A stretch of DNA of 64,000 bases from contig BLSF01000013.1 of the NCBI GenBank assembly GCA_012862575.1, positions 62,001 through 126,000 of the forward strand, written 5' to 3'. The notes below the pieces were generated by a model. It did not search any database. It was given only the letters and a program-made list of their open reading frames with translations, and was not told where the DNA came from. A program made the translations under genes and the position numbers. The DNA comes from Parietichytrium sp. I65-24A. Taxonomy: Eukaryota; Sar; Bigyra; Thraustochytrida; Thraustochytriidae. Each line of letters begins with the position of its first letter. Within the stretch, counting starts at the first letter, position 1. Shown here one piece after another: positions 3,588 through 23,423 of the stretch.

Positions 3588-6500
3588 ATGGCTTCGGACT
3601 CGGTGGCCGAGGCGTGCAGTCGTCTCGCTGCATGGTGCGAGAGCGGTTCGCTCGAGGACGTCCCCGACGATGCGTCGTCCTCGCTGGTGGGTGCGGTGTG
3701 GGAGGCAGCGGCGCGGACGGGCACGTGCGCGAGCGACGTGGTGGCACAGGTGCTGGACAGCGAGGACACTTTCGCCCGCAGCTCGGGATCGCGCGCAGCC
3801 ATGGCCCGATGCGTGCACGTCCTGCGCCGCGTACTGCTCCCCGATGCTGCCGAACTCGCCGCGTTCCTGCGCGGGAACCCCGAGCAGCAGCAGCAGCAGA
3901 AGAAGGAGCTGGAGAACGAGAATGGGAATGGGTTTGATAGTGGGGAGGGCGATGAAAAGGCGGCCAAGCTGGAGGCGGAGCTGGAGCTGGAGCGCACGGC
4001 GAGGTTCGTGGCAGTGGTGAACGGCGTGGTGGGTTGGTGCGCGTCGGAAGAAGGCGGCGGCGGAGCGGACAGTGGGGAGCTGTGCGCGCCGGCGGCAAGT
4101 CTGTGCCTGCACGAGGCGTTCGGCAAGGAGTGGGAGCGGCAGCAGGTGGTGCTGCAGCACATGCTGGCCATGCTGACGCAGGACATGGCCGTGGTGTGCA
4201 GGTCGGCCACTGCGCAGCCACGCAGGACCATCGGAGTGCTGACGGCATGGGCGATCGTGTGCGCGGGATTGGCGAGGGTCGCGCAGGCAGGCGCGGAGCT
4301 GGACAAGCAAGTGGAAGTGTGGGCCAGCTGCGTGGGCAGCTTCGCGCAGGTCCTGTTTAGCGAGAGCGAGTGGGCCATCGCAGACGAGCTGGCAATGCGG
4401 TGCGGGCTGTGGGTGGCCCTTTTGGAGCCGCAGGCGCTGTCAGCAAGTGTATGGTTCAATATCTCGATTCCGCTTGCAAGTGCGCTGCGGAGACCGAAGG
4501 AAAGCCTGGCCAACGAAATAATCGAAACGTTGGAGCAGGTGGCGTGGCGGATGCCTCCCGACGCCCTTGAGCGACTGTGCTTCTCGGCTGGCAGCGCAAT
4601 GAAACAGATGATTTCACGGAATGTTGCGCTTGACCGCGCCAAGAGGTTCTTTTTAAAGTGCGCTGATGAGCAGGCGCTGGCGCAGGATATCTCTCGCCTT
4701 CTCACCAGCAAAGACAAGCTCGGCCCCGCTGACGAAAGGTGGGCCACGTTTGAAATTGAGCTCGCTGCCGAACGCGGAATCGATCTAACTCTTGGCGCAG
4801 ATTCAATTTCCCACTCCCTGGAGCTCATGACGAGTCTACCAGCTCTCCAGATGGCTTTTGTCAACGCTCTTCTTAAGGAGGAAAGGGTCTGTCGTAGTGA
4901 GAATGTCATGAACGAAATTGTGAGATACGCCCTTCGGCACTCTTTGAGGGGCGTTCTGCTCGCCGCCGTGCGGTCCACTGGGGGCACCACTATTTCGCCT
5001 GCGCTCTTGCGGTTGTGCATCGTAAATAACAACGAAGATTGGGAAGTTCGCTTGGCTGCGCTTAAGGTTACTTCGTGCTTTGTTACTACTTTGATCTGCC
5101 TGGAGGACACCAATCGCGAAGTTCGGGCACAAGCTGCGGAGAACCTGGCCTCGATGCAGACACCTATGACGGATGCGCGCATGCGGCAACTGGAGCTTCT
5201 CTTGGCGTCGCGCTCGATTATACTCAAGAAGAGAAAAAATGCCATTCACGAGCGCGCCCACGCTCTATTTCTCGACAGCTTCCTAACCAGCGCTGCGAAT
5301 CTAAACAGAGCCCCCGAACTGCTCTTCCAATGGATAGAGGAGAGTTCTTTCTCTTCGAGCTACGTGGACACAGACAGAACCTGCGCGTCAGGTTTGGCGC
5401 AGGAGTTGGTCCGAGCAAAGCTGAAGAGTGTTTTTGGAAATGCATCGGCGACCTTGTCCAAGTTATCCTCTATACTTGACAACCTCGCGAGCAGTACGAA
5501 GCCGACGCATGACCGCCTCTCTTCGCTGTTGATGTCTTTTGTGTTTTCTCTTGAGCAGGAGTTTCATAGCGCAACCAAACGCGCCGCCGCTCTCACCAGG
5601 GAACCCCAGAGTGAAGCAGAGGCTCGCCAAGCTAAAAGCGACAAATTTTTTCTCACAAACAAGGCCGTCTGCGATGAATGGCTCTCCCGCATTCGGCCAT
5701 CGTGTTTGGAGTGCTCAAGGATTTGCGGCTCTGATCTGGAAACTGATGCACTGTGGCACGGTTGGCAAGGCCTGCGAGAAGGCAGGGTAGATGTAGTCGA
5801 GACCTTGTACGCGCTCTCCCAGGTCTTGAAGGCTCGAGGAGAGCCCGAGTTTGTAATGGATCTGCTCCACTGGACAATCGAACGGGACGCGGAACCACAA
5901 CAAGAGCTCCACCTTGACTCGCTCTTGCGCGGGACAGTGCACCAGGCGGCAGGGGAGCATACACAGGCGCTAAAATGCTTCAGTATGGTGAATGAGCAGC
6001 TCTGGCCGGGTCTGCTTGCATCAAATGGCGCTTCCAGCGTAAAGGTGAAACGAGAATTCACCTGGTCCACGGAAGCTTCCATAGACAGCTTGGTGGCTTT
6101 GTCTTCTTGGGGTGAGCTGGACGAACTTTGTATAAAACTGGAGCAGTCTCAGGAGTCGGCATGGGCCGCCGGGAGAGACTCGCTTGCTGAGCTCTTCGCC
6201 GTTGGGAATCCAACGGTCTTGTTTCTCGCTCAAGCCAGTAGGGGCTTTGAGCAGGTAAATAACACCATGGCGGAACAGCTTGAGAGACTCGTGAACTCGG
6301 ACACGCTAGGAGACGCTCGAGTGCTCCCGCTGCAACAATTGGACGCTGCTATCCTATGTCGTCTTCTCGGAAATGTCACCACTCTGTCAGCATCCTCAAG
6401 CAACACTGGAAGGCTTGAAGACTTGAAGGATAAAATCGCGCGCATCATTCGAAGAGCGATACACTCGAACGTATCACTATCTACGACAAATGCGTTGCAG

Positions 6501-9500
6501 GCTCGGCTTTGGTTTCTGGATACTCTCTCAAAACCTCACGGTCCATATGGCACCAAAGCGCCACCTTCCGATATAGAGGACTTGAACCTATCCACCCTGG
6601 AGATGCTGAGGCGGATATACTGGCGCGAGCCAAAATTTCAGGACCAGGTTTTGATTCTCGAATCGCGAGTTGCACGGGAGAGCGGGAACTTTGCAGCTGC
6701 TAACCGGAGGCTGCTCCAAGTCTCGGGTAAGAAGCATGTCGATTTCTTGTTGGAGCAAGCTCTGCTGCAAACTGTAAACGAAGAGCCATCGCTGGTGACT
6801 ATCGGATTTCTTCAGGAATTGGTGACGAACGTGGTGAATGAAAGATACATGCATACTCCAACTTCATTGCGCGCTGCCGAGAGGCTTTCTCAGCAGCTCG
6901 CAGGTATAGATAGCGAGTCCAAGATTCAGTACCATCTGGAGCAGGCGTGCCGTCTGATAGAGGCTCGAACTGCAACCGCCGGAGAGCGGTGTGGAGGTCA
7001 ATCAGCATGGTTTAATCTGGGATGTTGGGCACGCAAAGAAGCCCGCACACGCCCGGCTGAGAGAGCGCAACTCTTAGCATCCGCAGGACGTGCATTTCTG
7101 AACCATGTAAATTATTCAGATGAAGGTGCTCGAAGCGAAAGAACCGTCGCTTGTTTGTATTCGCTAGAAATTCTTCAAGAAGCCGAACTGCCCGATATGG
7201 TAGTTTCTGACACTCCGCCGGAAGCATGGTTGCCCTTGGTGCCCCAGCTATTGGGGGCTCTCAATAGTCATAACCGTTCCGTGCTTGAGAGTCTTGTCAT
7301 CTCTGTGGCAAAGGCTCACCCAAATCAGGTGATCTGGGACGTATTTGCTGCGAGGAACGAATTGTCTCGGGAGTTTTTCACTCAAGTGAGATCTGCATTC
7401 CCTCAATTTGATTCAGCCGAGCGAGTGATTACTGACTTGGTGGGTTGTGCAGTGTGGGTTGAGGAAAGATGGCAGAGCTTTCTTGAAAGGCTTCTCCAGC
7501 AGAGGGTGAAAACCGTCGAAGCCGTTCGGACTTTACTTGGCAACAATTCATTTGACGAGCAGACAAAGCGCGAGCGCTGCGCCGCGGTTATGCAGCCCAC
7601 ACTTTCTGCTCTCCATGACCTCTATTCGGCGACATTTGGCGAAATGGACGAGGACGACGATGAAGTGGAGGATGATGGGGAAGATGATGATCACGAGAAA
7701 GGTCCAGCCCAGGATGGCGGGGACCACGATGCCGACGGCGACGTCGCTGAAGAGGAGGGGGATGACGACGATGATGACGAAGAAGGCGAAGATGCCGAAG
7801 GGGCGTTTTCAAATGGCCAAGCCGTTGGATCAGGTCTAAGTCAGGCTGACATTGCTTCTACAGACGGGGCATCAGACGCGCGCTCTGCGTCCAATGTTTC
7901 ATCAAAGGGCGTTAGTAAATCAAGAGCCCGGTCGCGCCAAGCACGAAGGCCTGTCGAAGACGACTCAAATACATCACGCTCAAAAGCAACCGTTGCAAAT
8001 CAATGTGATCAAAACGCGAATACTGGAGCGTTGCAGGGTGACGGCCGCAAGAGCCCTACCAGCGGCGTTCGGAATGAGAGAGCAGGTAGTGGTGGCTCAG
8101 AATCTGCTGCTATTAAGAAGAGAGCTTTATCTAATCGGCTGCGGGAGTTCCAGGAGAGCATCAGGAACACCATTCAGAGTATGGAGGACTTTGCCACACT
8201 TGGGGTAGAAAACGCTTGGAGTGCACTCGACCTCGAGCATCGGCGACTTTCGCGCTGGATGAAAACTCGCCATGCTGAAGGCAAACTTAGCCTCTATGCA
8301 CCGAATCTCTTTGACCAACACACAGGTCAGGCAGGGCTCGTGATTCCTGGTTCAGATAATGTTGCGTTGACCGGTTTTGTGGATCGAGTAGTGGTCTTGT
8401 CGACCAAGACGCGGCCAAAGCGTATCTGGGTGCAAGGTAGCGATGGGCGGGAATACAGCTTTCTTTTGAAAGGAGGTGAAGATATGCGCGTAGATCAGAG
8501 AATCATGCAGTTAGGGCGGGTGGTGAACGAAATGATTGCAGCGGAGCAGGCTCACCATAAAGACATCCGGGCAGCCGGTGTGGCATTCAATACCTTTCGT
8601 ACTTTCACTGTTAATCCGCTGAGCCGCAGGGTCGGGCTTGTGCAATGGATTGAGGACGCCACGCCGCTCTTGTCCGTGTACAAAGATTGGCAGGTGTCGC
8701 AAGGGCAATCGTCTCCGCCAGGTGGATCGGATTACCTCGCTATCATCCACAAGCATGTTTCCAACGCAATTGGGGTGGACAAGGAGGTTGTCAGTCAAAT
8801 GCAGTGGAAGGAGTGGCCACAGGATGCCCTTGTTGCGGCGCTTCGAAGCGCCTCCGAATTAGTGCCAGCAGATCTTTTGGCCAAGGTACTCTGGTCGCAT
8901 GCACCCGACGCTTCATCTTGGTGGGCAAGAACGCGACGTTTCGCAAGATCGGTTGCCGCAAGTAGTATGGTAGGGCATGTTGTTGGCCTCGGCGACCGTC
9001 ATCTTGACAACATTCTTCTCGACTTATCCGACGGGGCAACGAGTGGTCAAGTGGCTCACATCGACTTTGCCGTTTGTTTTGACAAGGGACGGCGTCTACG
9101 TGTTCCCGAAACTGTTCCTTTCAGGCTGACAAAGGTGATGCGGGGTGCGCTCCCCTTCCACAATGAAAAGGAAGAATCTCGCATTGGGACAGCCGGAGTG
9201 TACGCATCTTGGAGTCACATTGTTCTTGGATCAATAAGAGACAACCGGGATTTGGTGACGTCATTGCTCTCTTCTTTGATCTTTGATGAGTCTATTGATT
9301 GGCTCAGTGAGGAAGAAAAGGGAGAAAATTACACCATGGACGTGAATGTGACTATCTCTTTGTTAGCCTCAGAGCTCAACTTGGGGGACGCCGCCATTGA
9401 GTATCAGTTCGAGCGCGAGTCTGACCCAAGTCCAAAATCCGCAATGCTGCAGGTATTTGAACGCCTGTTTGAACAAGAACGTGATTTGGCCGCGCAAGTG

Positions 9501-11288
9501 AGCCTAGATGATGCATCGTTGCGAGATTTTGATGGTCAGATGCAAGAATTCGACGGGCGTATGAAAGCCGCAGTGGAGAAGGTCGTCCTTGCAGAAGAGA
9601 GGCTCGAGGCAGCACGAGAAGAACTCTTAGCGAAACAACGCTTTATTCGCATGCAGCAGGGGGAGTGTGATCGTTTGCAAGCCCAACTTGCAAATGGCGT
9701 TATTGGGTTACAGGAGGAGCATGTACTCAATAGACTGAGGTCAATGTTCAACAACGCGATAGGAAATCTGCTCTCCCCGGACCAATCATCGCTATCGCCA
9801 GCCATTCGCTCCACTGACAAAAAAGATGCCCTCTTCCTCCCCGCTTGCAGTGAGGTTCGTCTGCGGTTCGGGGAAGCTGCGCAGTTGATTCAGGATATGC
9901 GGGCTTTGCTCATCAAATATGATGACTTGCGTTCGTACGGATCAGACTCTCTGGTCGAGGGGTGGGTTGATTGGTTTCAGCAGTGTCGCACGGAGTCTAA
10001 CGAGGCCCTTGACCGTCTCAAGAGCCTGAAGAGCATGTTGCGCCAAGCGAGGCCTGGATATCGGGAAGAAGAGGGCGAAGGAGGCCCACAACTTTCCGAG
10101 TCAGAATTGCAGCGAGAGCTCTCACAAATATCTTCTATCCTTGAAAGCAAGTTCGTGGAGTCATCTACCTCAAAGTTACTTGAGCAGCTCAATCCTAGCA
10201 AGATTGTGCAGGCAATTGGCGACGTTGCAGCGGCTTGTCGCGAAGACTCTAAAGCCTGGCGCAACGCTCGGGCGATAGAGTGGTATTGGGCTCGTTCCCA
10301 CGCTTTTGAGCGAAGCTCCTCTGTCATCAATGCGGTTAAAGCAAGATCAGATATTCGTCGACGACTTCTGGAAACTTTTTCTCGTTTGAGCACTGCAGCC
10401 GAGTCTTTCAAAACCGCAAGCACGAAATGGAAGGCCGCAGTGCAGGACACTGACGCAAGGCGCAAGGTCATTCAGGAAATTCAGGAATCGTGCAGATTGT
10501 TGCTTGGAGTTTTGGAAAGTCTTACGAAAGTAGAAGCACATAGTCGAGACCTGCGCACAGTGGCTGATGATGGCGAAGGTTTAGCTGCTCCACTTGACGT
10601 TAAATTTGGGGAGCTGCTAAGAAGTATGAATAATTCCTTCTCCCAGTTTATTAGCGCTGCGATAGACGGGGCACAAGCAGCCTTGGAACTTGTGAGCCTG
10701 CGGCGTCTTCAAGGGAATGCGGGCGAAGAACGTGCGAAACTGTCAAGAACTCTCAATGAGCATACGATCGCACTTGAGAACATAACGCATCAAATTTCGA
10801 GTAGGCAGCACAGAATTCGTCGGGATGCATACCTCGAACATGTGCATATCTGGGCGAATCTCTCCAGCATCAGAAGAGGGGCAGATAAGGAGGGTCCATT
10901 CTATGCTATTGCTAGCCGTCTAATAGAGGCCCGAAATGCCTATCTCAAGACGAAAAGTTTGTTAGGACGCCCTGGCAGTCAAGGGCGGGACAAGCTTGCG
11001 GAAATCCAAAGTTTGCTTGACACAGCCCAAGTGCTTCGCAAAGAGTTGGCCAATTTGTTGGAACACGCCAAGCGCGATTCTGGGGACGATGGTCGCAAGG
11101 AGGAGGCATTTGAAGCAACAAGGAAGAAGCGCAGGGAGGCTCTGTGCAAGGATGCTGTTAAACGGTTAGAGTCTAAATTAGAGGCGAACGGAAGTTCCAC
11201 ATCTGCTTTGATAGAGCAGCTCACTAGTCAAGCGATGAGCGAGGAACGGCTTTCGCGAATGTATCAAGGTTGGATGCCTTTTGTGTAA
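3588..11288 (+). CDS. SMG1: SMG1-like phosphatidylinositol 3-kinase-related kinase
   Basis: A 2,566-residue PIKK. SMG1 phosphorylates UPF1 in nonsense-mediated mRNA decay. The first ~1,350 residues are helical solenoid, FAT-like sequence. An Asp/Glu-rich tract (about 1351-1407) follows, then a Ser/Arg-rich linker. The kinase N-lobe begins near 1600 with KTRPKRIWVQGSDGREYSFL and KGGEDMRVDQRIMQL, closely matching SMG1. The catalytic loop is GLGDRHLDN (about 1800) and the metal-binding segment HIDFAVCFDKG (about 1825). RLRVPETVPFRLT follows, which is SMG1-type rather than ATM, ATR or TOR. A ~700-residue coiled-coil insert separates kinase and tail, as in SMG1. The last residues, RLSRMYQGWMPFV, form a FATC end. 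The start at 3588 (MASDSVAEA) is preferred over an in-frame ATG at 3342, whose extra 82 residues look like translated UTR. The human protein is longer (about 3,660). No introns are visible. Confidence 0.92.
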   Translation: MASDSVAEACSRLAAWCESGSLEDVPDDASSSLVGAVWEAAARTGTCASDVVAQVLDSEDTFARSSGSRAAMARCVHVLRRVLLPDAAELAAFLRGNPEQQQQQKKELENENGNGFDSGEGDEKAAKLEAELELERTARFVAVVNGVVGWCASEEGGGGADSGELCAPAASLCLHEAFGKEWERQQVVLQHMLAMLTQDMAVVCRSATAQPRRTIGVLTAWAIVCAGLARVAQAGAELDKQVEVWASCVGSFAQVLFSESEWAIADELAMRCGLWVALLEPQALSASVWFNISIPLASALRRPKESLANEIIETLEQVAWRMPPDALERLCFSAGSAMKQMISRNVALDRAKRFFLKCADEQALAQDISRLLTSKDKLGPADERWATFEIELAAERGIDLTLGADSISHSLELMTSLPALQMAFVNALLKEERVCRSENVMNEIVRYALRHSLRGVLLAAVRSTGGTTISPALLRLCIVNNNEDWEVRLAALKVTSCFVTTLICLEDTNREVRAQAAENLASMQTPMTDARMRQLELLLASRSIILKKRKNAIHERAHALFLDSFLTSAANLNRAPELLFQWIEESSFSSSYVDTDRTCASGLAQELVRAKLKSVFGNASATLSKLSSILDNLASSTKPTHDRLSSLLMSFVFSLEQEFHSATKRAAALTREPQSEAEARQAKSDKFFLTNKAVCDEWLSRIRPSCLECSRICGSDLETDALWHGWQGLREGRVDVVETLYALSQVLKARGEPEFVMDLLHWTIERDAEPQQELHLDSLLRGTVHQAAGEHTQALKCFSMVNEQLWPGLLASNGASSVKVKREFTWSTEASIDSLVALSSWGELDELCIKLEQSQESAWAAGRDSLAELFAVGNPTVLFLAQASRGFEQVNNTMAEQLERLVNSDTLGDARVLPLQQLDAAILCRLLGNVTTLSASSSNTGRLEDLKDKIARIIRRAIHSNVSLSTTNALQARLWFLDTLSKPHGPYGTKAPPSDIEDLNLSTLEMLRRIYWREPKFQDQVLILESRVARESGNFAAANRRLLQVSGKKHVDFLLEQALLQTVNEEPSLVTIGFLQELVTNVVNERYMHTPTSLRAAERLSQQLAGIDSESKIQYHLEQACRLIEARTATAGERCGGQSAWFNLGCWARKEARTRPAERAQLLASAGRAFLNHVNYSDEGARSERTVACLYSLEILQEAELPDMVVSDTPPEAWLPLVPQLLGALNSHNRSVLESLVISVAKAHPNQVIWDVFAARNELSREFFTQVRSAFPQFDSAERVITDLVGCAVWVEERWQSFLERLLQQRVKTVEAVRTLLGNNSFDEQTKRERCAAVMQPTLSALHDLYSATFGEMDEDDDEVEDDGEDDDHEKGPAQDGGDHDADGDVAEEEGDDDDDDEEGEDAEGAFSNGQAVGSGLSQADIASTDGASDARSASNVSSKGVSKSRARSRQARRPVEDDSNTSRSKATVANQCDQNANTGALQGDGRKSPTSGVRNERAGSGGSESAAIKKRALSNRLREFQESIRNTIQSMEDFATLGVENAWSALDLEHRRLSRWMKTRHAEGKLSLYAPNLFDQHTGQAGLVIPGSDNVALTGFVDRVVVLSTKTRPKRIWVQGSDGREYSFLLKGGEDMRVDQRIMQLGRVVNEMIAAEQAHHKDIRAAGVAFNTFRTFTVNPLSRRVGLVQWIEDATPLLSVYKDWQVSQGQSSPPGGSDYLAIIHKHVSNAIGVDKEVVSQMQWKEWPQDALVAALRSASELVPADLLAKVLWSHAPDASSWWARTRRFARSVAASSMVGHVVGLGDRHLDNILLDLSDGATSGQVAHIDFAVCFDKGRRLRVPETVPFRLTKVMRGALPFHNEKEESRIGTAGVYASWSHIVLGSIRDNRDLVTSLLSSLIFDESIDWLSEEEKGENYTMDVNVTISLLASELNLGDAAIEYQFERESDPSPKSAMLQVFERLFEQERDLAAQVSLDDASLRDFDGQMQEFDGRMKAAVEKVVLAEERLEAAREELLAKQRFIRMQQGECDRLQAQLANGVIGLQEEHVLNRLRSMFNNAIGNLLSPDQSSLSPAIRSTDKKDALFLPACSEVRLRFGEAAQLIQDMRALLIKYDDLRSYGSDSLVEGWVDWFQQCRTESNEALDRLKSLKSMLRQARPGYREEEGEGGPQLSESELQRELSQISSILESKFVESSTSKLLEQLNPSKIVQAIGDVAAACREDSKAWRNARAIEWYWARSHAFERSSSVINAVKARSDIRRRLLETFSRLSTAAESFKTASTKWKAAVQDTDARRKVIQEIQESCRLLLGVLESLTKVEAHSRDLRTVADDGEGLAAPLDVKFGELLRSMNNSFSQFISAAIDGAQAALELVSLRRLQGNAGEERAKLSRTLNEHTIALENITHQISSRQHRIRRDAYLEHVHIWANLSSIRRGADKEGPFYAIASRLIEARNAYLKTKSLLGRPGSQGRDKLAEIQSLLDTAQVLRKELANLLEHAKRDSGDDGRKEEAFEATRKKRREALCKDAVKRLESKLEANGSSTSALIEQLTSQAMSEERLSRMYQGWMPFV

Positions 11289-11551
11289 GACAAAAATAGA
11301 TAGAACGAGACAATAGGAAATGATAAAATTTTATCACCACCCCATTCGCGATTGAGATGTCGCAAATTTCCCACGGAGCGCAAATGCGAGTGGCCGTTAA
11401 TTACTTCTAATGGCTACCTGGGACCACGATGGTATCGCAAACTGTACGCATTAGGGCAATTTGACATTGACTAGGACTGCTGGCTGATTGACTGTGAGTA
11501 GATGCAGAGAACGCAAACAGCAGTCCAGAAACGTGAGATTGTTCAGAAGCA

Positions 11552-13492
11552 ATGACAATGAGCAAGATGCATATCTTCACGCTGGCTTGCACAGCGTTTG
11601 GTGTGGTGATGCATGCATCCGACGCACAGCTCAATACGAGGAATGTTGTTGGAGGGGAAGGGTTTCTCTTGAGCGAACTGAAGAGCGAAAAATTAGAGGC
11701 CGCTTATCAACGCGTGGAAAATGCTGATTTGCTCTCGCGAGAATACCCTATAGCTCCGGATTCTTCGTTTGCGACAACGCAAGGGGTCCAAATCGCCGTG
11801 AACTTGGTGAACGTGAGCGCGACAGAAGTTCTTTCAAACTGCAGCGCTTTGCAGAGGCACGTGGAAAAAGCAATTGAAGATAGCAGCGGCGGTCATGTTC
11901 TGGAGGTTTTGGCAGAAAGCGGGGACATTCTTGCGTCACTCAGCGACGGGCACGTCGCCATTCACTCTGATGCTGAAAGCCAATTCGTGAGCGTTGATGT
12001 CCTGAGCCACGGCTCCGACTCAAAATCAGCAAAGCACATCGTCGCACATTTGGCCAGCAGCCTCGGAGGCTCGATTTTGGATGGGGTAGAGCTAACTCGC
12101 GGCGTTCCTACACGGGCCGCTGTAAATGAAAAGATACTAAATCCGGCTTTTGTCGCTTCAACTATGGACACCTCGCACGACGACGCCACTCTGAAGGAGA
12201 CGTTGGCTCGCCGATGGGCGAAGGGGCTGCCCAAAGAAAGGCTCGAAGATCTTTTCGCAGATCTTGATGCTGAATTCGATGTCATCTATCAGAAGAGGAG
12301 CAAGTTCCAGCTCATTGAATTTCTTCAGCATAAGGAAAACAAGGACATTTGCTTGTTTTTAGATGGGCTTGTGCAAATATGTGAGTCTTTCGACCAAGCG
12401 TATTCCGAGGTGTACGTGCACCTTCCTGCAGCGTTTCTCTCGAGTCTGGAAACAGTCCTAATTGTTGGCGGTGGAGACGCTCTAGCGCTTCGAGAGGTGT
12501 TGGAATATTCTTCCGTAACGAGGGTAGTTCAGTTGGAGCTGGATCCGGAGGTGCCTAAACTTTGCGAAGACATGTTCAAAATTAATGCAAACCTTCCTGG
12601 TTCGACCCGCGCTGATCCGAGGGTGGAGTGGGTTTTTGGGGACGCCTCGAAAACGCTCGAAAAGCTCGCCTCTGCTGAAGAGAAGTTCGATTTGATCCTA
12701 TTGGATATCTCTGAGACCGACCCGAGCGGCTCTGTGTCCTCGGTCGACTTTTTCAGGCAGGTGAGCCAAGTGTTGCATTCCCACGGCATCTTCATCAAGA
12801 ACGATGAGAGCTACCAGAGGCCGACGGCAATGCTTTTTGACGAGTTTCTCGAGGTGGCATATCCGGTCCCGATGATATTGGAGCAAACATTTGTGCTGGG
12901 CAGTCACAAAACGTCATTGTTCCCTATGCCATCTTTCAGAGTTTTGGAGGAGAATGGAATCAACACCACTTTTCTTGCCCACGGCCCATCTTCCCGGTAT
13001 AGGCAGCTTCAGAGCATGATTCGACGTTATGAAAGCAGGGCGGTCGAGGCAACGATACAAGGAGAGCATGCAGAAAATGTCCCCGAAATTGCCCCAACAA
13101 CTTGCGGACCAAGAACAATTCCGCAATCCCTCTGGGGTGATAGCCGGTGCTCCAATAAGGTGGGCCGATATGTCCTGTTGGAGATATTTAACTTCTCGCC
13201 CCTTCCGATCGCAATTAGTTTCAAGGGAGCCAATGGCGAAGAAGAAATTATAGCGAGCCATGTCCTCCCAGGATCATCAGAGAGGATCAGAACACGGATT
13301 GGTGATGAGTTAGTTCTGGTAGATGACGAAAAGTATCTTCACAATGTCGCGAGGTTTTTCGTGGCTCGTCAGCATGTCTCACACAAATATGTCGTCTACA
13401 CGAGCGTACAGGTTGAGTTACATGCGACAGTTGACAACCCCAAAACGACACCAAAAAATTTGCGTCGCGCCTCTCCAGTAGAAACCCTTTAG
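11552..13492 (+). CDS. signal peptide + SpeD-like (inactive-looking) + spermidine synthase-like + VHL-like protein
   Basis: A 646-residue protein. Residues 1-26 look like a signal peptide. Residues ~65-180 resemble prokaryotic-type AdoMet decarboxylase (SpeD): SDGHVAIHSDAES then VSVDVLSHG align with SESH..IH.....ASIDVYTCG. The pyruvoyl-forming Ser is Gly133 and the catalytic Cys of TCGD is a His, so decarboxylation is not expected. Residues ~235-460 match spermidine synthase: FLDGLVQICESFDQAYSE, VLIVGGGDALALREV (304-318), LELDPEV, then GDASKTL and LLDISETDPSG. Residues ~540-625 (LEIFNFSPLPIAISF, then LPGSSERIRTRIGDELVLVDD) resemble the VHL beta domain. A fused SpeD-SpeE order fits coupling of decarboxylated AdoMet supply to aminopropyl transfer, but the dead SpeD motif and the signal peptide argue for a changed role. 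Domain calls are by eye; the synthase call is firmest. Confidence 0.75.
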   Translation: MTMSKMHIFTLACTAFGVVMHASDAQLNTRNVVGGEGFLLSELKSEKLEAAYQRVENADLLSREYPIAPDSSFATTQGVQIAVNLVNVSATEVLSNCSALQRHVEKAIEDSSGGHVLEVLAESGDILASLSDGHVAIHSDAESQFVSVDVLSHGSDSKSAKHIVAHLASSLGGSILDGVELTRGVPTRAAVNEKILNPAFVASTMDTSHDDATLKETLARRWAKGLPKERLEDLFADLDAEFDVIYQKRSKFQLIEFLQHKENKDICLFLDGLVQICESFDQAYSEVYVHLPAAFLSSLETVLIVGGGDALALREVLEYSSVTRVVQLELDPEVPKLCEDMFKINANLPGSTRADPRVEWVFGDASKTLEKLASAEEKFDLILLDISETDPSGSVSSVDFFRQVSQVLHSHGIFIKNDESYQRPTAMLFDEFLEVAYPVPMILEQTFVLGSHKTSLFPMPSFRVLEENGINTTFLAHGPSSRYRQLQSMIRRYESRAVEATIQGEHAENVPEIAPTTCGPRTIPQSLWGDSRCSNKVGRYVLLEIFNFSPLPIAISFKGANGEEEIIASHVLPGSSERIRTRIGDELVLVDDEKYLHNVARFFVARQHVSHKYVVYTSVQVELHATVDNPKTTPKNLRRASPVETL

Positions 13493-14303
13493 ATTAGATC
13501 CTGCTGACAGATCGCACCTGCTCTTCTCGCCTTTGGTGAAATACCCTTAGATTCTACAAGAAGGAGGCTTCGCAATCCTCTCGAGGACAGTTAAAAGAGC
13601 TCAACTCTTTCGCATGTGCTGCCTTCCTGTGAATCCGATCATCAGTGATTGTCGCAAAGCTCTCTCAAACCAATTCTGTCTGGGATCTTTTCGTGCCTTT
13701 GTTGACTGTGTAATTTGCCGGCTCGGGAAGTACTCCCTGCCTCCTCGCTCTGCATCTGTCCGAGTCTACGTCTCAAAACTCACGAACTGTACTCGTTGCG
13801 GGATGAGCAGCCTTGGTTGGAGGCCAGCGGTGCCGGTACCAGTTGAAGGAGAAGCACCTCGGATATCGCATGTTCCATCTCTTTGGTACCTCAAGCAAAA
13901 CATGAAATTATTCATTGTCTCAACGCATTCACCAGACTCCGTCCATTTCGCAAACTCAAACCGACACGAAGGGGAATCAAGTTATAGTTTCTTTTTCATT
14001 CAGTTTCATAAATCATCAATACATCTTTGGAACAACCACAATCAAGTATCGAGTATCGGGTGAGGAGAATACCCGTGGTCGGCGTAGCTAACATGGTCGC
14101 GAGTTTGAGTAGTGCCAATCGGTCGTTTCGACTGGTTAGCCGACAATATACGTGCCACTGCCAATTGGCAAGCATGCGTTCATGCGTTTTAGAATCAATT
14201 AATTAAACACCGCAGACCCCACCTTGTGAGGAGGTGGCGACGCGAGTACTAGTACCGAAACGAAAAGGTTTGAAGTTGAAGAGGAAGAGATACTGTGAAG
14301 AAA

Positions 14304-14513
14304 ATGCTGTTCTTGATGATGTTACCTCTCCGCATTTTTCTGCTCGCGCTGATCGGAGTTCTCGTGTGGTTTGGTTTACAGTTGGATGAATGCGACGACT
14401 ACCAAGCCATTGGACCGCGCGGTCGGGGCGGCTTTCTCCAGCCAGCAGTTAGTCATTCGCGACCCTTCAGAAATCTAAAATCCATGGCCAACTTGGGTGC
14501 CTCCTGCTCCTGA
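14304..14513 (+). CDS. possible small membrane protein
   Basis: A 69-residue frame beginning MLFLMMLPLRIFLLALIGVL, one strong hydrophobic helix, followed by a Gly/Arg/Ser-rich tail. No family is recognised. It stands alone and could be chance, so confidence is low. Confidence 0.2.
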   Translation: MLFLMMLPLRIFLLALIGVLVWFGLQLDECDDYQAIGPRGRGGFLQPAVSHSRPFRNLKSMANLGASCS

Positions 14514-14665
14514 GCAGGTCACCACGCTATAGACTCTGCACTTGTGGCTGGCAGTCGCTCACTATGCTCGACTAGTCCCAACCGAGGGGTGGCACAGTGG
14601 GTGGGTGGTGGGCCGCTGTGGCCACAAGTTTTCAACGGCTTTCTTTGTTGTTAGAAGTGTGGAAC

Positions 14666-14702
14666 GGGGTACGGGGTACTGGGTACTGGGTACTGGGTAC
14701 TG
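14666..14702. repeat. (GGGTACT)n tandem tract
   Basis: About five tandem copies of a seven-base GGGTACT/GGGTACG unit. The GTAC core is the same as in palindromic motifs found in many other intergenic stretches of this window. Confidence 0.85.
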
Positions 14703-15007
14703 CCCAATGTGAGTTTTGCTGCAGTGTGAGTGGTGCTGAGCGTGTAAACTCGTCGTTGACTTTGATGGAGAGGCACGTAGAGTAGCATGATCGAAAAATA
14801 GCGTGTCTGAAGCGCTCGCGTAAACGAAAGGGTCTTGGGAGGGCTGGCTATGTGTTGAATTGTGATTTTTTAGCTAGTGGAAAGCAGTCGAAAGGGTGTA
14901 GTGGGAAGGGTCCGTTGATAAAACGAATATCGATGATCATGATCAAATGATTCGTAAGAGCAGAAGTGCGCAAAGAATTCACTAGCGCTAGCGTTGGAGT
15001 ATCCGAG

Positions 15008-15127
15008 ATGAAGAGACGAGTTACGTTTTTCGTCGTCGCCCTCGCCCTCGCCGTCGCGTCTTTGCCACTTCTCGTTGGAACAAATTTAGCGCTCTTTTTG
15101 GTACTAAGACGTGTTCAAGAAAGGTGA
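15008..15127 (+). CDS. possible 39-residue membrane or leader peptide
   Basis: ATG at 15008 opens a 39-codon frame: basic start MKRRV, then about 28 hydrophobic residues (FFVVALALAVASLPLLVGT...), ending RRVQER. It resembles a signal peptide or single-span microprotein. It lies 400 bases upstream of the first receptor gene on the same strand. It may be an upstream ORF, a stand-alone microprotein or chance. Confidence 0.2.
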   Translation: MKRRVTFFVVALALAVASLPLLVGTNLALFLVLRRVQER

Positions 15128-15533
15128 ATTGGGAAATGGGAGGTCGATGATGATCAAAAGGACGTTTCCAACCTCATTTGTTTGGAGATCTGCACCTCGT
15201 GTTACTTTAACTGCTTCTTTTCGTCAATTTAAAAGCGATGCCAAGTGATGTAGGGATGGGGGAGTGGAGAGAGGAGGACATCGCTCGAGCTAGTTTTCGT
15301 TTCAAAATTTCTTTCCACAAGTCAGAAATGACTGCTTCTAATCCAGCAGAAGGTGGGGAGGAGCTCGACTGTAAGGACCCGCTGCTGCTTGGAGATTGTT
15401 TAGCTCCGAGTAGACACTTACAAGCGAAGCATTGTGTCGAGTCTGGAAGTTACTCTGTCAGTTTGCAGACCCCAAAACTGAGGTCGCGCGTGCAATCAGG
15501 TCTCAGTGCTGTGACGAGAGAGTGTGGACGAAA

Positions 15534-18151
15534 ATGCGGCAAGCGTTGACGGCCGTCGGCGCCCTTGTCAGTTTGTGCTGCACTGCAGTGCATGCTGAGT
15601 CTGAAAATTTTCGCGTCAACTTTTTGACTCCGTTAAGCGACGCTCGGGAGACAGACAATACCAACTGCCCGGATAATTTTATCGAAGGCAATCATAGCTT
15701 CGCATCGCGATGCCTTTTCCGCGATGACGAGTACACGTCCTTGACGGTAACTGGGTTGCTCGCAGTGAAGCACTTTAACGAGAGAAACTCAGACTATATT
15801 TCAGAGCTTGCGGAGCTTCAATGCGACAGGAACTTGAGTGTGTCGATCTTTGACAGTGGGTTGAGCGAATCCGTTACGATTCGGCAGATGCTTGAAATGC
15901 TAAAGGATGAGTCAAGCGCGCCTCACGCAATCGTGGGACCAGCTCGATCAGCGTGTTCTGTTTCTTCTTCTTTGATATCCGGTGTGTACAATATTCCGCA
16001 AATCAGTTATTGGTCAACAAGTACTTCTCTCGATAACTTGCTCCAGTATCCATCGTTTATGCGGACAATTCCAAGCGACGTAAGTTGACAAAACATAAAA
16101 AGAAATGTAAGGCAACTGAATCGTACAGCGCTGACGAGCGGTTCATTTCAGGATACTGTCGCATACAGCCTCTGTCAATTTTGGGCTGACGAGGGCTACA
16201 AATTCGCCGCAATCGTTTATGTGAGCGACAGCTATGGTAAGTTCTTTTCTCTCAGGAATTTTTTGCGCTTCTATGGCCATGCTCAGAGATATGGAATTCA
16301 TACTTACAAGAAAGACATCCTGCAGGAGACGCTTATAAGGAATCGATTTTGAAGCACTGCTCGACCTTTGACATTCAAGTATCTTCTTTCGCCTACTCGG
16401 AGGCTGTGGACGGTGATACGTCTGCAACAAAGGCACAGGTTCAGGCAATGGCAGCGCTAGGAATTAACGTGTTCCTTTTAGTTTCCGCGAGTGGCGTGAG
16501 TGTGGCAGTCGACTCTATTCTGGCTGAAGCCAATAGCCTGGGGCTTCTTGAGGTTGGCAAGCAGTGGTTCTTCTCTGACGGCGTAACGAATGCGCAGTTC
16601 GCACTTGCTTTTGAGGCATTACCAGAAATTGCAACCAAGCTAAACGGTGCGATGCGGGTGATAGCTACTGGCGGCACGGCTCTCAACTCTGTGTGGACCA
16701 AGTTTGCCGCAGACTGGCCGACATTTGATGTATCCGAATTCGAAGAACACTTCCCTTCGTACATTGCGCTCAGTCCCACGCTTTTCGGAGACACCATGGC
16801 CAACAGCTCAATGGTTCAGCACGTAGGAGCATTCATGTACGATGCGGTCATGGCAATTGGCATTTTTGGTTGCAAGGTCTCGAGCGAGAATGCCGTACCA
16901 TCCGATTTTGGGGATCAATTCCTCGAAAGCAAGTCGAGTTGGTCATTTCGCGGGCTTACGGGAGACGTTGCATTTAATTCACTTGGAAACAGGAATGTCA
17001 CTACGGCCAACTTCGAGCTTTCAAATTTAAGAGTCAACGTGGTGGACGGGACCTACTCTTCTGAATTTAACACTGTGGCGCAGTATATTGGTGGGGAGTG
17101 GCAGCGCGCGGAAGGCACAACGTTGTACTATCTTGGTAGCTCCTTGGTTCCTGTGGCTGATGTGGACACACCAGAGCATGATAGACAACAGTCTTCTCTC
17201 ACTCGAAGCTTTTGTCACACCTTGTCTGCCATCAACGTATTCACGGCGTCAAGCTTCCTACTTTGGACCTTCCACCACAAGAAACATCCAGTCATCAAAG
17301 CAAGCCAAGTGAAGTTTCTAGCCTTGGTTGCAGTCGGAACGATCCTGTCCAGTAGTTCGATTATATGGTTCGCACAAGATGATCACAACCTGCCAGAGGA
17401 AGCCTTCAAATTCGATCAGGAAATTGCTCTCGAAAATTACACTCCGCTCGATCGCTCTTGCTCGATCGCCCTGTGGTTCTTTTCGATGGGCTTTGTCCTG
17501 AGCTACAGTAGTCTTGCCTCCAAAATCTACCGAGTTCAAAGGATTTTTGGTAACAAGACGCTCAAGAAAGTCAACATCTCAAATAGGCAGTTATTTTCAG
17601 TCATTGTAGCTTGTGCAGCGGTTGACATGATTATTTTAGCGTTGTGGGGGCTGCTCTCACCCCTGCGCTTCGTTAGAACGGTGCTCAGCCGTGATTCGCT
17701 TGGGTTTGCTATAAAGAGTGCTGGTTCATGCGTGTCTGATAACTATGCACCGTTTTTGATTTGCTTGGGAACATTTCACCTCTTGCTGCTCTTTGGAGGA
17801 AACTACTTTGCATACAAGACCAGACACGTGAGTACAGCGTTTTCAGAGGGGAAGTTTGTTTCCATCGCTATGGGAAGCACTCTACAAGTATACGCTCTCG
17901 CGATACCAATATTGGTTATCGCCGCAGACAACCCAACAGCTACAATGTTCCTTCGAAGCGGGGTGATCTTCATCTCAGACTTTTCGATTTTGTGCTTGGT
18001 TTTTGTCCCGAAATTTATCTACATAAGGCAAAACAAGGGAAAATACAGCACGGCAAGCCTCATAGCACCAGTACCGCCGCCAAGCGATACTACCCATATT
18101 GCCCCGCAGTTTACGCAAATCCCTCCTGAAACCGAAACAGCCATATCCTAA
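15534..18151 (+). CDS. class C (GABA-B-like) G-protein-coupled receptor, three exons
   Basis: Predicted 818-residue receptor. Exons 15534-16079, 16152-16236 and 16326-18151; introns of 72 and 89 nt with GTAAGT donors and AG acceptors, phases 0 and 1. Residues 1-21 (MRQALTAVGALVSLCCTAVHA) form a signal peptide. Residues ~22-495 are a periplasmic-binding-type (ANF receptor) ligand domain: GLLAVKHFNERNS, IVGPARSACS, IPQISYWSTS and FMRTIPSD are the classic class C motifs. Residues ~505-777 contain seven hydrophobic segments of the GABA-B type, with SMGFVLSYSSLASKIYRV, IFGNKTLKKV and a TM7 SDFSILCLVFVPKF. There is no cysteine-rich linker between the domains, as in GABA-B receptors. The tail is short. 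The ATG at 15534 is chosen because the frame upstream reads poorly and the signal peptide begins there. The ligand is unknown. The next gene is a close paralogue. Confidence 0.88.
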
Positions 18152-18294
18152 GACAGGTTTTCGCTTCTCGCAAGAATGAACATTTATTGACTGAGATTGT
18201 AATTGTGATGAGAAGCCGCTCACTGATGGGAATGGTATATTCTTCTGAGCTACTTTGCACATTGAGCAGCACGATGTCCGACTCCACGTTGTGT

Positions 18295-18577
18295 GAAATC
18301 TTATGTTCTCCGGATCAACAAATGTAAGACGGGTTAGTAACATGTAATTGACACAAACCTTCTCATAGTATACAAATCTTCTAAACCATGGGCTCCCGCA
18401 AGCAACCGACTCATTTATTACCACATTCATGTTTGCAAATGATACGCGCTTCTCGCCCACGCGAATGTCAAGATCCAATTCAAGAGCCAGTTGGAAAGCA
18501 TTTCCATCTACATTGGCAACGAGGTACAAAACAGGCGTCCGAGTCCGAATCGTAACGGACTTTTTAGCCAACTCTAG
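18295..18577 (-). other. coding-like patch, minus strand
   Basis: One minus-strand frame reads about 90 residues that alternate like beta strands, for example TPVLYLVANVDGNAFQLALE and RVGEKRVSFANMNVVINES. It has no ATG in its first 47 codons. It begins just after an AG that could be a splice acceptor, and it runs on into the 3' end of the receptor gene. It may be an exon, a relic or chance. No family is recognised. Confidence 0.2.
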
Positions 18578-18817
18578 CTAATCGGCTAGAGAGCGCTAAG
18601 CTCAGCTCAGCTCTCTCTTTTCAACGGTCATCTTTGGTTAACTGCGTATCTATCCATCCACTCGTGCACGTGCAGACTCACTTGTGACGGACACGTCAAG
18701 AGCATTGAAGACTCTCTCTCTCGTCAGTGAGCGAGCACAATTTGTTCCACCAGCATGTCGGTTACGTTTGTGGTGGACTGGGGCTCTAAGTCTGGAGACA
18801 ACGACGATCAGTTCAGG

Positions 18818-18844
18818 TTTTTTTTTTTTTTTTTTGGGGGGGGG
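18818..18844. repeat. T18G9 homopolymer junction
   Basis: A run of 18 T directly followed by 9 G. Such runs are prone to sequencing and replication slippage, so its exact length is uncertain. Confidence 0.9.
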
Positions 18845-19220
18845 TAGGAAGACAAAGATAAGGTGGAAGCGATGGCGAGGGTTAGGATAGGTTGGAAGAG
18901 AGAGAAAGACGTAATTGCGCATGGGTAACGTTCATGGAGGTCAAAAAGCATATTTTTCCTCTACAGGGTGCGAAGTGTAGGTAGGCACTAGTTCCAGCTT
19001 GATCGTCACGGCCACCGTCGCTGATGATTCAACGCCTCCTTTTGTGCAGGAGCTAGGACAGCGCTAGCGGTCTTCGAGTCATTTGCTCCATCTCTTTGAG
19101 TTCAAAGGGGATCTGGAAGAAGTGAGTAGAGGAAAGACAGCGACACAGTTCGGCGCAATCCTGGGGCATCCAAGTCCCTTTTGGGAGAGCCGTGGAGACA
19201 GGCGAGTGCTTCCGGGCAGT

Positions 19221-22200
19221 ATGCGACGGCAGGTCTTCGCGCTCACTGCTCTTGCGCTGACTTGGCCGAATGGGTCCGCTGTGACTTTGGAGCCTTTCAG
19301 CGTGAGCTTTCTCACCCCGCTGAGCGATGCCCGCGATGCCTCGGAGACTGGCTGCCCTGGCTTATTTTTGGAGGGCAACAGCACCTTTACGTCGAGGTGC
19401 TTGTTCAGCGATAACCAGTATTTTGCGCTCACAGCCACGGGTTTGCTCGCAGTAAAACATTTTAACGAGCGAAATTCAAAGTATGTACCAGATCTGGCAG
19501 ATCTCCAGTGCGAGCGCAAACTGTCCGTGAAAATGTACGACAGCGCTCTCAGTGAAGCGGTTTCCATTCACAAGATGTTTGACATCATACAGGATGGTAC
19601 TCCTCACGGCATTATCGGACCTGCAAGGTCTACATCTGCATCAGGTACAAGTGTTATCTCTGGCGCGTACAATATTCCACAGATTAGCTTCTGGGCCACG
19701 AGCACCAAACTCGACGATAGATCGGAAAGCCCTACATTCCTGCGAACGATTCCGAGCGATGTAAGTTGATTTTTTATTGTGCGGGAGGGTGAAGAGAGAC
19801 TGTAATGCATTGTGCTAAAACTTTGGTTCTCGTGTACAACTGAAGGACTCAGTTGCATATGGCTTGTGCCAGTTTTGGCAGCAAGAAGGCTATGAATATG
19901 CTGCGATGATGTACGTCAGCGACAGCTACGGTAAGTTGACGCAGCATCTAGCGTTTCAATCTCGGGATGCCAGTGATTTGCTGATTGTTTCGTACTCTGG
20001 CTCGTGTCGCCGTTGTTGTTTTCTGTTTTCACAGGTGAGGGATACGAAAGCGCAGTAATGAAGCACTGCGCGAATCTTGGAATCCAGGTGACGTCATTTT
20101 CATTCACCGGTCTTGAAGCGGACACGGTCGCAACGAGGAGCCAGGTGAGCGCAATGGCTGAGGTTGGGGTCAATGTATTCCTGCTTGTGTCTGCCAGCGG
20201 AGTCAGCGTTGGGGTGGACACTATACTTCTTCGAGCGAACGAACTAGGCTTGCTTGAAGTTGGGAAGCAGTGGTTTTTCTCGGAAGCAATATCACATAAT
20301 CAGCTCGAGCTTGCGGTTAAGCAAGACAACTCAATAGCACATAAGATATCCGGGGCGATGAGAGTCATTGCCACGGGAGGCACTTCTACGAATGATGCAT
20401 GGGTTCAATTTGCGGAAGATTGGGCTTCCTTTGAAATAGACGAGTTTACGGAGTACTTTCCGTCTTACGCAGTACCAGAAAGCGACCTTTTCATCAATAC
20501 TCCCGCAACGATATCTTTGGTGCAAAATGTTGGGACGTTCATGTATGACGCCGTCATGGCATTTGGAATGATTGGTTGTTCAGTCTCAAGCACAGGGAGT
20601 ATTCCGTCTACGTTTTCTTCCGAGTTCCTTGCCACGCAAACCTCTGTCTCGTTTTCGGGTCTTACAGGAAACGTGAGCTTCAATGACGCTGGGAACCGGG
20701 ACATTAGAACGTCTGGCTTTGAGTTGTCCAATTTGTTAACCACCCTGGCGAACGACCAGTTCACCACTGAATTTAAGACCGTAGCCCGATACGTCAACGA
20801 GAGCTGGTCCATCGTGGACGGTGCGACCATTCTCTACCTTGGTAATTCCGAAGTCAAAGTCTTAGACAAGGACATTGATAGCTTCCATGTCAACTTTCTT
20901 ACGCCGCTGAGCGATGCGCGTATTTCGACTTTTGCGGATTGCGACGCGAAAGGGCGAACGTTTCTGGAAGGGAACGATACCTTCGCTTCCAGGTGTTTGT
21001 ATTCCAGTGATGAATATTCTGCGATAGTGTTAACCGGTCTGCTAGCCGTGAAACACTTTAATGAGAGAAACTCAAAGTACGTCTCTGAGCTTGCTGACTT
21101 GCAGTGCAAGCGGAACATTTCGGTCAGCATATATGATAGCAGCCATAGCGAGTCCGTTGTGATACGTGAAATGCTCAATATGCTCAAAGTCGACAACTCA
21201 ATACCTCACGCAATAGTGGGTCCCGTTCGGTCCGCGTGCTCCATCTCCTCATCGCTGATCTCTGGAGTGTATAAAATTCCCCAAATCAGCTTCTGGTCAA
21301 CGAGTACTGCACTGGACGACTTATTGCAGTACCCTTCATTCATGCGCACAATACCAAGTGATGTAAGTCGTTTAAACCGGGATGAGTGGCAAACGTGACG
21401 GGAACGCTAACTAGGGAGGCTCTATCCATAGGACACTGTTGCGTTCAGTTTGTGCGAGTTTTGGAGTGGGGAGGGATATAATTTTGCCGCAATCATTTTT
21501 GTGAGCGATAGCTACGGTAAGTGTGGACGCCGCCAATCATTGGAAGGGCCAAGTACTAGTACTGGTTTTCAAGCACTGACACATCTTGTGTATTTCAATC
21601 GACAATCGACCGACGACGACGGTACAGGTGAGGCGTACAAGGAGTCCATTGTAAAGCATTGTCTCAATCTGGGCATCCAGGTCTATTCCTTTGCATTCTC
21701 AGAAGATGAAAGCGACACAAGTGCGCTAATGGCGCAGATGGCTGCAATGGCGGCCTTGGAGATCAACGTGTTTTTGCTCGTAGCTGCTAGTGGCAGCTCT
21801 GCTGCAAGTTCAATTGTCGTTGAGGCGAACACACTAGGCCTGCTGGAGGTCGGGAGGCAATGGTTCTTTTCAGAAGCAATCACCTCGGACCAATTTGCCT
21901 ATGCAGTTTCGCAAGAGGCTGAAATTGGGCCCAAACTAGGGGGTGCAATGCGGGTCATTGCTACTGGCGGAACCTCTCACAATGAAGTGTGGGAACGCTT
22001 TGCCGCCGATTGGCCCACTTTCGTGGCATCCGAGCTCACTTCCCCGTTACCATCGTACATGAACGTGAGTGACGATATCTTCACCACAGTGTTCGCAAAC
22101 TACTCAAATGTGCAACATGTGGGGTCCTTCATGTACGACGCTGTAATGGCTATTGGTATAATTGGATGCTCGATTTCGAGCGAAGGGAGTATCCCATCCA

Positions 22201-23423
22201 ACTTTGGCAGCCAGTTCCTATCTGCCAAGTCTTCGATATCCTTCGGAGGATTAAGCGGCAAGGTGGCCTTCAACGAGTTGGGGAATAGAAACACCAGCAC
22301 GGCGAATTTCGAGCTTGCAAATTTGCGGGTGAGCTATGCATCAGGCTCCTTTTCGGCAAATTTTGTCACCGTTGCGGAGTACATTGATGGCGCATGGGAG
22401 TTATCCGAAAGCGAGACCTTATACTATTTGGGCGATTCCTCGGTGCCCGTGAGTGCCGTGGACGTTCCCGAGCACGACAGGCAGCAATCTGACTTTACAC
22501 GCGTGTTTTGCTACGTGCTGAGCTTTATCAATATTTTCACCGCGTCGAGCTTTTTGGCGTGGACATTTCGCAACCAAAGGCACACGATCATCCGAGCAAG
22601 CCAGGTCAAGTTTCTTTCCTTGGTGGCCATCGGAACCATGCTTTCTAGTGGCTCTATAATCTGGTTTGTGCAGGATGACTATTATCTGGCGGAGGAGAAT
22701 TTCAACTTTGATGTGGAGGTGGCACTTGAGAACAACAGCTTTTTAGATAGCGCCTGTTCCACTGCTTTGTGGTTATTCTCCATGGGATTTGTGTTGAGCT
22801 ACTCCAGTTTGGCGAGTAAGATCTATCGGGTTTCCAAGATTTTCGGAAATAAGACCCTGAAAAAAGTAAACATCCGCAACGCGCAGCTCTTCACGATGAT
22901 TCTTGCCTGTGCTGCTGTAGACATGATCGTCCTCCTTTGTTGGGGGAATACCGCTCCGCTCCACTATGTGCGTATTGTCCAGGCCCGCGACTCCCTGGGG
23001 TTTCCAACTCGAAGCGCGGGAAGGTGCGAATCGGATAACTACGCGCCATTCTTGATTTGCCTTGGCACGTTCCATCTCATACTTCTCTTCGGAGGCAACT
23101 ACTTTGCATACAAGACTCGCAACGTGCATACGGCTTTCTCCGAAGGCAAATTCGTGTCCATCGCAATGGTCAGCACGCTGCAAGTATACGCCCTCGCCAT
23201 TCCCATCCTTGTCATCGCGGCAGACAACCCTGCGGCAACCATGTTTCTCCGCAGTGGTGTCATCTTCATCTCCGATTTTTCGATCCTCTGCTTAGTGTTC
23301 GTCCCCAAATTCATTTACCTCCGACAAACTTCGGGAAAGACAGCCGCGAGCAGCCTCGTTTCTCCCGTGGTGATCACCCAAAACACAACCAACTTTCTGG
23401 GGCCGTCCACAGAGGATATGTAA
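19221..23423 (+). CDS. class C GPCR with two tandem ligand-binding domains and one 7TM domain, five exons
   Basis: Predicted 1,277-residue receptor. Exons 19221-19760, 19846-19930, 20035-21362, 21432-21516 and 21628-23423; introns of 85, 104, 69 and 111 nt, all GTAAG...AG. A signal peptide (MRRQVFALTALALTWPNGSA) is followed by ligand domain 1 (about 22-487). At KVLDKDIDSFHVNFLTPLSD it runs with no stop into ligand domain 2 (about 489-960), then seven hydrophobic segments (about 970-1243) nearly identical in pattern to the neighbouring receptor. Each ligand domain keeps the same two intron sites: phase 0 after the IPSD motif, and phase 1 inside SDSYG, bracketing an exon of exactly 85 nt. Domain 1 ends where the 7TM linker would start, and domain 2 lacks a signal peptide, so this looks like a clean domain duplication or gene fusion. 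Exon 3 spans the junction, which argues against two separate genes. Ligand unknown. Confidence 0.85.

Follow-up and report, generated by a model that had tools for sequence, protein, structure and literature searches.

A predicted class C receptor with two Venus flytrap domains in series on one 7TM domain, and further multi-domain receptors of this genome

The window is the whole stretch of 64,000 nucleotides that was analysed. Two class C receptor genes lie one behind the other on its forward strand. The upstream gene (15534-18151) encodes a sister receptor of 818 amino acids with a single Venus flytrap domain (VFT). It has three exons (15534-16079, 16152-16236 and 16326-18151) and two introns of 72 and 89 bases, whose places are homologous to those in the second gene. 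The second gene (19221-23423) has five exons and encodes 1,277 amino acids plus a stop, and its spliced translation contains only that terminal stop. Exon 1 (19221-19760) ends at a GT donor after codon 180, a position that matches the neighbour's. Exon 2 (19846-19930) is 85 nucleotides long and is homologous to the 85-nucleotide exons at 16152-16236 and 21432-21516, the latter being exon 4. Exon 3 (20035-21362) holds the joint between the two VFTs, and its coding frame has no stops. Exon 5 (21628-23423) carries the C-terminal part of VFT2, the linker, the 7TM domain, the tail and the stop. All four introns are GT-AG (19761-19845, 19931-20034, 21363-21431 and 21517-21627; 85, 104, 69 and 111 bases). 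Intron places agree among VFT1, VFT2 and the one-VFT neighbour, and the 85-base middle exon is found in all three. The preliminary description had the start, the end and the 1,277-residue length of the product right, provided these introns are spliced out. It had also spoken of a frame without a stop. This holds for the spliced product but not for the raw frame, which has eight internal stops. Seven of them are in introns 1-3, and the one at 19893 is in the 85-base exon 2, which the raw frame reads out of phase. In the 5' non-coding DNA the two genes share matches of just 11 to 15 bases.

The protein begins with a signal-peptide-like stretch (residues 1-25, 19221-19295), a hydrophobic run called by eye from hydrophobicity. 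VFT1 (residues 26-486, 19296-20867, interrupted by introns 1 and 2) and VFT2 (residues 492-956, 20883-22457, interrupted by introns 3 and 4) have limits that we set ourselves, those of VFT1 from the alignment. A class C 7TM domain follows (residues 968-1240, 22491-23309). A Pfam search of the 1,277-residue protein finds two stretches of ANF_receptor (1.7e-63), the best of them at residues 99-438 and the second in VFT2, and one stretch of 7tm_3 (3.8e-38, 132 bits against a cut-off of 33.5), which the genome-wide 7tm_3 search puts at the same position. This bears out the earlier claim of two VFTs in series on one class C 7TM domain in one chain. The only Pfam families at E 0.001 are ANF_receptor, 7tm_3 and Peripla_BP_6. 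At that threshold there is no match to the cysteine-rich domain NCD3G between VFT and 7TM, and none to a kinase domain, so the histidine kinase feature of BvgS-type sensors is absent. A hydropathy scan gave fewer than seven peaks in the 7TM domains of both window genes and weak peaks within the VFTs, so the 7TM call rests on Pfam. When the whole chain is compared with the PDB, GABA-B subunits match best, with GABA-B2 at the top. The 7TM domain aligns with that of GABA-B2, including the loop cysteine pair and the VPK motif of TM7. An extracellular-loop cysteine pair and a PK motif in TM7 are among the class C features named in PMC3727952. Taken alone, VFT1 best matches the taste receptors T1R1 and T1R3 and mGluR5, and VFT2 best matches T1R3, T1R1 and the calcium-sensing receptor. 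Each isolated VFT is thus closer to taste, glutamate and calcium-sensing receptors than to GABA-B, which means the label GABA-B-like rests on the 7TM domain and the missing cysteine-rich domain. Class C receptors usually have one VFT per chain. At the level of sequence the protein has the features of a class C GPCR in every respect except this one, since it has two. We are highly confident in the architecture of two VFTs on a single 7TM domain.

The joint is the critical point. Between our domain limits (486 and 492) it comprises five residues (20868-20882). A free local alignment with the whole, uncut 818-residue neighbour leaves a single residue unaligned, residue 489 (20874-20876). In this alignment neighbour residues 1-491 match residues 1-488 of the two-VFT protein at 55% identity, and neighbour residues 24-814 match residues 490-1275 at 69% identity. 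The junction had been placed at about 20870, which agrees with the limits of 488 and 490. Copy 1 had been said to lack the linker and 7TM domain and copy 2 the signal peptide. Both statements stand, as the match to copy 1 stops at neighbour residue 491 and the neighbour's first 23 residues are missing from the match to copy 2. Exon 3 extends from VFT1 (C-terminal half) into VFT2 (N-terminal half). It has 442 whole codons, with no stops in the coding frame and 21 and 30 in the other two. None of 20,000 mononucleotide shuffles was open. Since the joint is inside one open exon, no choice of introns can create it. The 801 bases around it (20500-21300) match one place in the 42.5-Mb assembly.

It is worth considering the neighbour more closely. 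We call its VFT V0, and the VFTs of the two-VFT gene V1 and V2. Amino-acid identity is 57% for V0-V1, 67% for V0-V2 and 56% for V1-V2, and beyond the VFT the two proteins share 74% of their residues. The three VFT pairs have non-synonymous p-distances of 0.23-0.29 against synonymous ones of 0.83-0.85. With the 7TM part included the ranges are 0.19-0.29 and 0.83-0.90. The synonymous sites are saturated, so neither dN/dS nor a date can be computed from them. As far as these comparisons go, both VFTs and the 7TM part are kept by selection on the protein sequence. A tblastn search with VFT and 7TM queries found no copy in the window beyond those already described, and one 7TM match at E 0.55 was taken as chance. 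With its 74% identity past the VFT, the neighbour is a natural one-VFT control.

The distribution of such architectures was examined in the rest of the genome. There are at least 82 matches to 7tm_3, some of which are pieces of one gene, and at least 24 to ANF_receptor among the best candidates scored. Both ANF and BMP-type N-terminal domains are present in the genome. A set of 36 proteins gave 29 distinct class C genes after 5 rows without a 7TM domain and 2 duplicates were set aside; this sample is not random, being biased towards strong matches and towards long frames. Of the 29 genes, 4 have two or three ANF-type VFTs, the window gene included. Contig C8 has two genes with three VFTs and a 7TM domain (539215-545142, 1,976 residues, and 549576-555116, 1,847 residues), and contig C23 has one with two VFTs and a 7TM domain (130109-134464, 1,452 residues), the second VFT being matched in two pieces. 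Genes on C50, C54 and C20 have Peripla_BP_4 regions before an ANF VFT and then the 7TM domain. This brings the genes with more than one periplasmic-binding-type domain to 7 of the 29, and the six outside the window are single uninterrupted frames. By Pfam alone, the first C8 gene has 2 ANF stretches, the second has 3 and the C23 gene has 1. Taken in isolation, the second C23 domain matches ANF at 3.9e-8. Pfam gives no match for the isolated first VFT of the first C8 gene, which was called from an iterated profile and from a BLAST match to its counterpart, at 83 bits and 22% identity. Where one ANF domain follows another in the C8 genes, the joint resembles that of the window gene, and a short linker connects the end motif of the preceding VFT with the first strand of the following one. 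The spacers in the C54, C20 and C23 genes are longer and cysteine-rich, and those in C54 and C20 have Notch/LNR matches below the Pfam cut-off. No tandem of the Bmp domain was seen; its 22 matches are in 22 different frames, and this counts against tandem domains as a general rule. The genome also has 24 G-alpha matches, 17 of them over the cut-off. Eleven of the 17 are outside contig C45 and cover most of the model, and the other 6 are pieces at C45. For the PUFA synthase PfaA there were 13 matches, none of them above the cut-off.

A tree was made of 20 VFTs, for which the tool warned of long branches, and it was rerun four times with 17 rows, each time without the two C23 domains and without one of the long-branched C8 domains. 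Within the C8 pair, the best partner of each domain in the other gene is the domain at the same position. In the main tree d1 groups with d1 (89/85) and d2 with d2 (86/83), and d3 groups with d3 in one rerun only (81/95). Some C8 domains score equally well or better with single VFTs elsewhere (C8A_d2 with V1, 148 versus 131 bits), and in the rerun without C8A_d2, C8B_d2 groups with C20 (98/97). The two C8 genes are likely, on these sequence comparisons, to be one old three-VFT type. The window genes are a separate matter. V0, V1 and V2 form a clade (100/100) nested among the one-VFT receptors C6, C27 and C18, and V1 branches outside V0 and V2 (99/97). The V0+V2 grouping is kept in all four reruns (94/93 to 97/97). 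By these trees the window tandem arose apart from the three-VFT genes.

We argue that the most plausible route to the window gene would be that two genes of a local tandem array fused, the first losing its linker and 7TM domain and the second its signal peptide. A recent intragenic duplication of VFT2 is not favoured over such a fusion because V1 lies outside V0+V2. One can also imagine that the two-VFT form is ancestral and that the upstream neighbour lost its VFT1, with no fusion of one-VFT genes at all. The position of V1 fits this history, although the fusion history predicts the same position. The clade sits among one-VFT receptors, and a tblastn of the window, with matches up to E 1 considered, finds no additional VFT upstream of the neighbour, so we consider an ancestral two-VFT form unlikely. 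Another possibility is that there is no such protein, and that two adjacent genes, one for a VFT1-only protein and one for a VFT2-7TM receptor, have been misread as one. Similar genes do sit in a tandem array here. However, the exon is open across the joint with no stop there, and copy 2 aligns only from neighbour residue 24 on and so has no signal peptide of its own. Such a copy alone would presumably miss correct surface delivery. The same kind of architecture is also found elsewhere as single uninterrupted frames, and we regard two misread genes as very improbable. Tandem repeats are prone to assembly errors as well, and a collapse or mis-join could in principle have removed the linker and 7TM domain of copy 1. 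Such an error would have had to preserve the frame and coincide with the domain boundaries. Given the amino-acid identity of V1 and V2 and their saturated synonymous sites, the copies differ too much to have collapsed. The joint DNA is single-copy in the assembly, and three other genes have two or three ANF-type VFTs. The chance of an assembly error seems to us close to negligible. With the joint in one open exon and its DNA single-copy, we reject both of these readings in favour of one two-VFT gene.

How such a chain might work is less certain. In a class C VFT the chain enters at the distal lobe and exits at the proximal lobe. A joint of one to five residues would be too short for VFTs lying parallel and side by side, so an end-to-end stack is the better fit, and the three-VFT receptors suit a stack better than a pair. 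This argument uses general VFT geometry rather than coordinates; the AF2 models had mean pLDDT values of 36.0 for the joint exon (4 sequences) and 30.2 for the C-terminal half of VFT2 with the 7TM domain (2 sequences) and were discarded. We think it fairly probable that VFT1 and VFT2 are stacked serially. VFT2 is joined to the 7TM domain like the neighbour's single VFT and would drive it as in GABA-B. VFT1 would sit atop VFT2, and its own ligand would alter the closure or the pairing of VFT2, so that the chain would respond to ligands in combination. Dimerisation of the chains probably persists, which would make a receptor with four VFTs and with output through a heterotrimeric G protein.

The preliminary description had proposed that the pair could act as a built-in dimer or sense two ligands. 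In a built-in dimer VFT1 and VFT2 would pack against each other by their distal lobes, as the two VFTs of an ordinary class C dimer do, and a single chain could signal. The chain does have two homologous VFTs, and known class C receptors work through dimerisation. But one to five residues must then reach from the base of VFT1 up to the top of its partner VFT2, and the three-VFT receptors of the same genome also speak against a pair. The built-in dimer is not supported, and we consider it improbable. It is somewhat easier to imagine that VFT1 is a non-binding spacer or a partner-binding module and that VFT2 is the sole sensor. GABA-B2 and some other class C subunits carry a VFT that does not bind agonist, and VFT1 is more diverged from the neighbour than VFT2 is (57% versus 67% identity). 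Against this, VFT1 is conserved at the amino-acid level (pN 0.28 and pS 0.83 against V0), and it matches ANF across residues 99-438 as well as the VFTs of T1R, mGluR and CaSR. A spacer role is therefore doubtful. The alternative that both VFTs bind ligand is a prediction we hold to be evenly balanced, and one chain possibly senses two ligands. Taken as a whole, the reading of the gene as a GABA-B-like class C GPCR with a serial two-VFT stack, a combined-ligand response and an origin by fusion seems to us slightly more probable than its opposite.

A broader scenario can be put forward tentatively, and we would rate it somewhat below even. The lineage may have repeatedly built class C GPCRs in which two or three periplasmic-binding-type domains are stacked (as ANF-ANF, ANF-ANF-ANF and BP4-BP4-ANF), each domain a separate ligand input. 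A dimer with up to four to six ligand sites would then feed one G-protein output, and combinatorial chemosensing would be done in one chain rather than by heterodimers. A single receptor chain may in this way respond to several signals simultaneously. The activation of class C receptors is accounted for by the encounter of two VFTs within a dimer. Chains with two or three VFTs raise the question of how a distal VFT without direct contact to the 7TM domain controls it, and whether a single chain can carry the logic for several ligands.

The class C GPCR itself is a known kind of protein, and judged by sequence two or three VFTs per chain would be a new variant of it. GABA-B has one ANF domain per chain, so the window receptor differs from its subunits in having two VFTs. 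It is otherwise like them, with ANF-type VFTs, a class C 7TM domain and no cysteine-rich domain; GABA-B receptors have an ANF domain without NCD3G (PMC12716839). The GABA-B-like receptors of diatoms are also protist class C proteins with a PBP/VFT N-terminus and no cysteine-rich domain. Seven of them have a PBP-like (PBP1) domain, and their 7TM domain is basal to GABA-B (PMC3727952). Unlike the window receptor they are described without a tandem, a word absent from the main text of that paper. The Grl receptors of Dictyostelium also belong to the class C receptors of protists and have N-terminal domains of ANF or BMP type, but each receptor clade has one domain type and the main text again does not use the word tandem (PMC10445921). 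In the passages that bear on this, the surveys of choanoflagellates and relatives, social amoebae and diatoms report one ligand domain per receptor or domains of other kinds (PMC12716839, PMC10445921, PMC3727952), and the sponge survey is silent on tandem VFTs in the corresponding parts (PMC4302439). Among the GPCR papers listed from one open-licence full-text library (including PMC8687355), judged mostly from titles and the beginnings of abstracts, we found no description of a class C GPCR with tandem VFTs, and examples may have gone unnoticed in print or in predicted proteomes. Among 46 viral-contig and 58 genome-contig pattern stretches, from collections that are not eukaryotic, none was confirmed as a relative.

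The closest parallels to the stack come from other kinds of receptor. BvgS is a bacterial protein with a histidine kinase output, and its VFTs belong to a different family. Trypanosome receptor adenylate cyclases resemble the window receptor in having two VFTs per chain of a protist receptor, but they have one transmembrane helix and a cyclase rather than a 7TM domain (PMC6027212). The BvgS family of sensor kinases is like the window receptor in carrying tandem VFTs above the membrane. BvgS itself is a homodimer in which the distal VFT1 is mobile and the proximal VFT2 closed (PMC4352136). One can ask whether there is a eukaryotic GPCR counterpart of the bacterial tandem-VFT mechanism. By analogy, BvgS would be the best mechanistic model for the window receptor, though not a relative of it.

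A profile search of the same genome, with scoring limited to the best candidates, gave five scored Peripla_BP_4 matches, and each of the five shares its frame with a 7tm_3 match. The Peripla_BP_4 matches are on contigs C50 (39451-41130), C20 (3096-3773) and C54 (84408-85826). At two loci a Notch/LNR-like cysteine-rich stretch separates Peripla_BP_4 from the ANF domain, with matches that fall short of the cut-off in each case (E 0.01 at L027 and 0.0049 at L028). Another class C receptor is found on contig C46 (locus L034, 5769-9056). Its single frame starts with a Bmp (PnrA-like) domain and continues through Kelch repeats to the 7TM.

The window holds other genes. The uninterrupted frame at 3342-11285 (+) is 2,648 aa long and carries PI3_PI4_kinase and FATC, so its predicted product is a PIKK-type kinase. 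A single 651-aa frame at 11537-13489 (+) matches Spermine_synth (9.5e-22), and its N-terminal region has a weak AdoMet_dc likeness that is below the cut-off (5.7e-4). This is a possible decarboxylase-aminopropyltransferase fusion. Two RXYLT1_C/exostosin-like glycosyltransferase genes are neighbours at 37738-39240 (-) and 41050-42567 (-). This pair is perhaps a second local duplication in the window.

Elsewhere in the genome, contig C66 has a 5,583-aa frame (8562-22499). About positions 176-516 of the PfaA model, the ketosynthase region, are matched four times as repeats, with none of the four above that model's cut-off. The frame is a putative large modular PKS-like gene.
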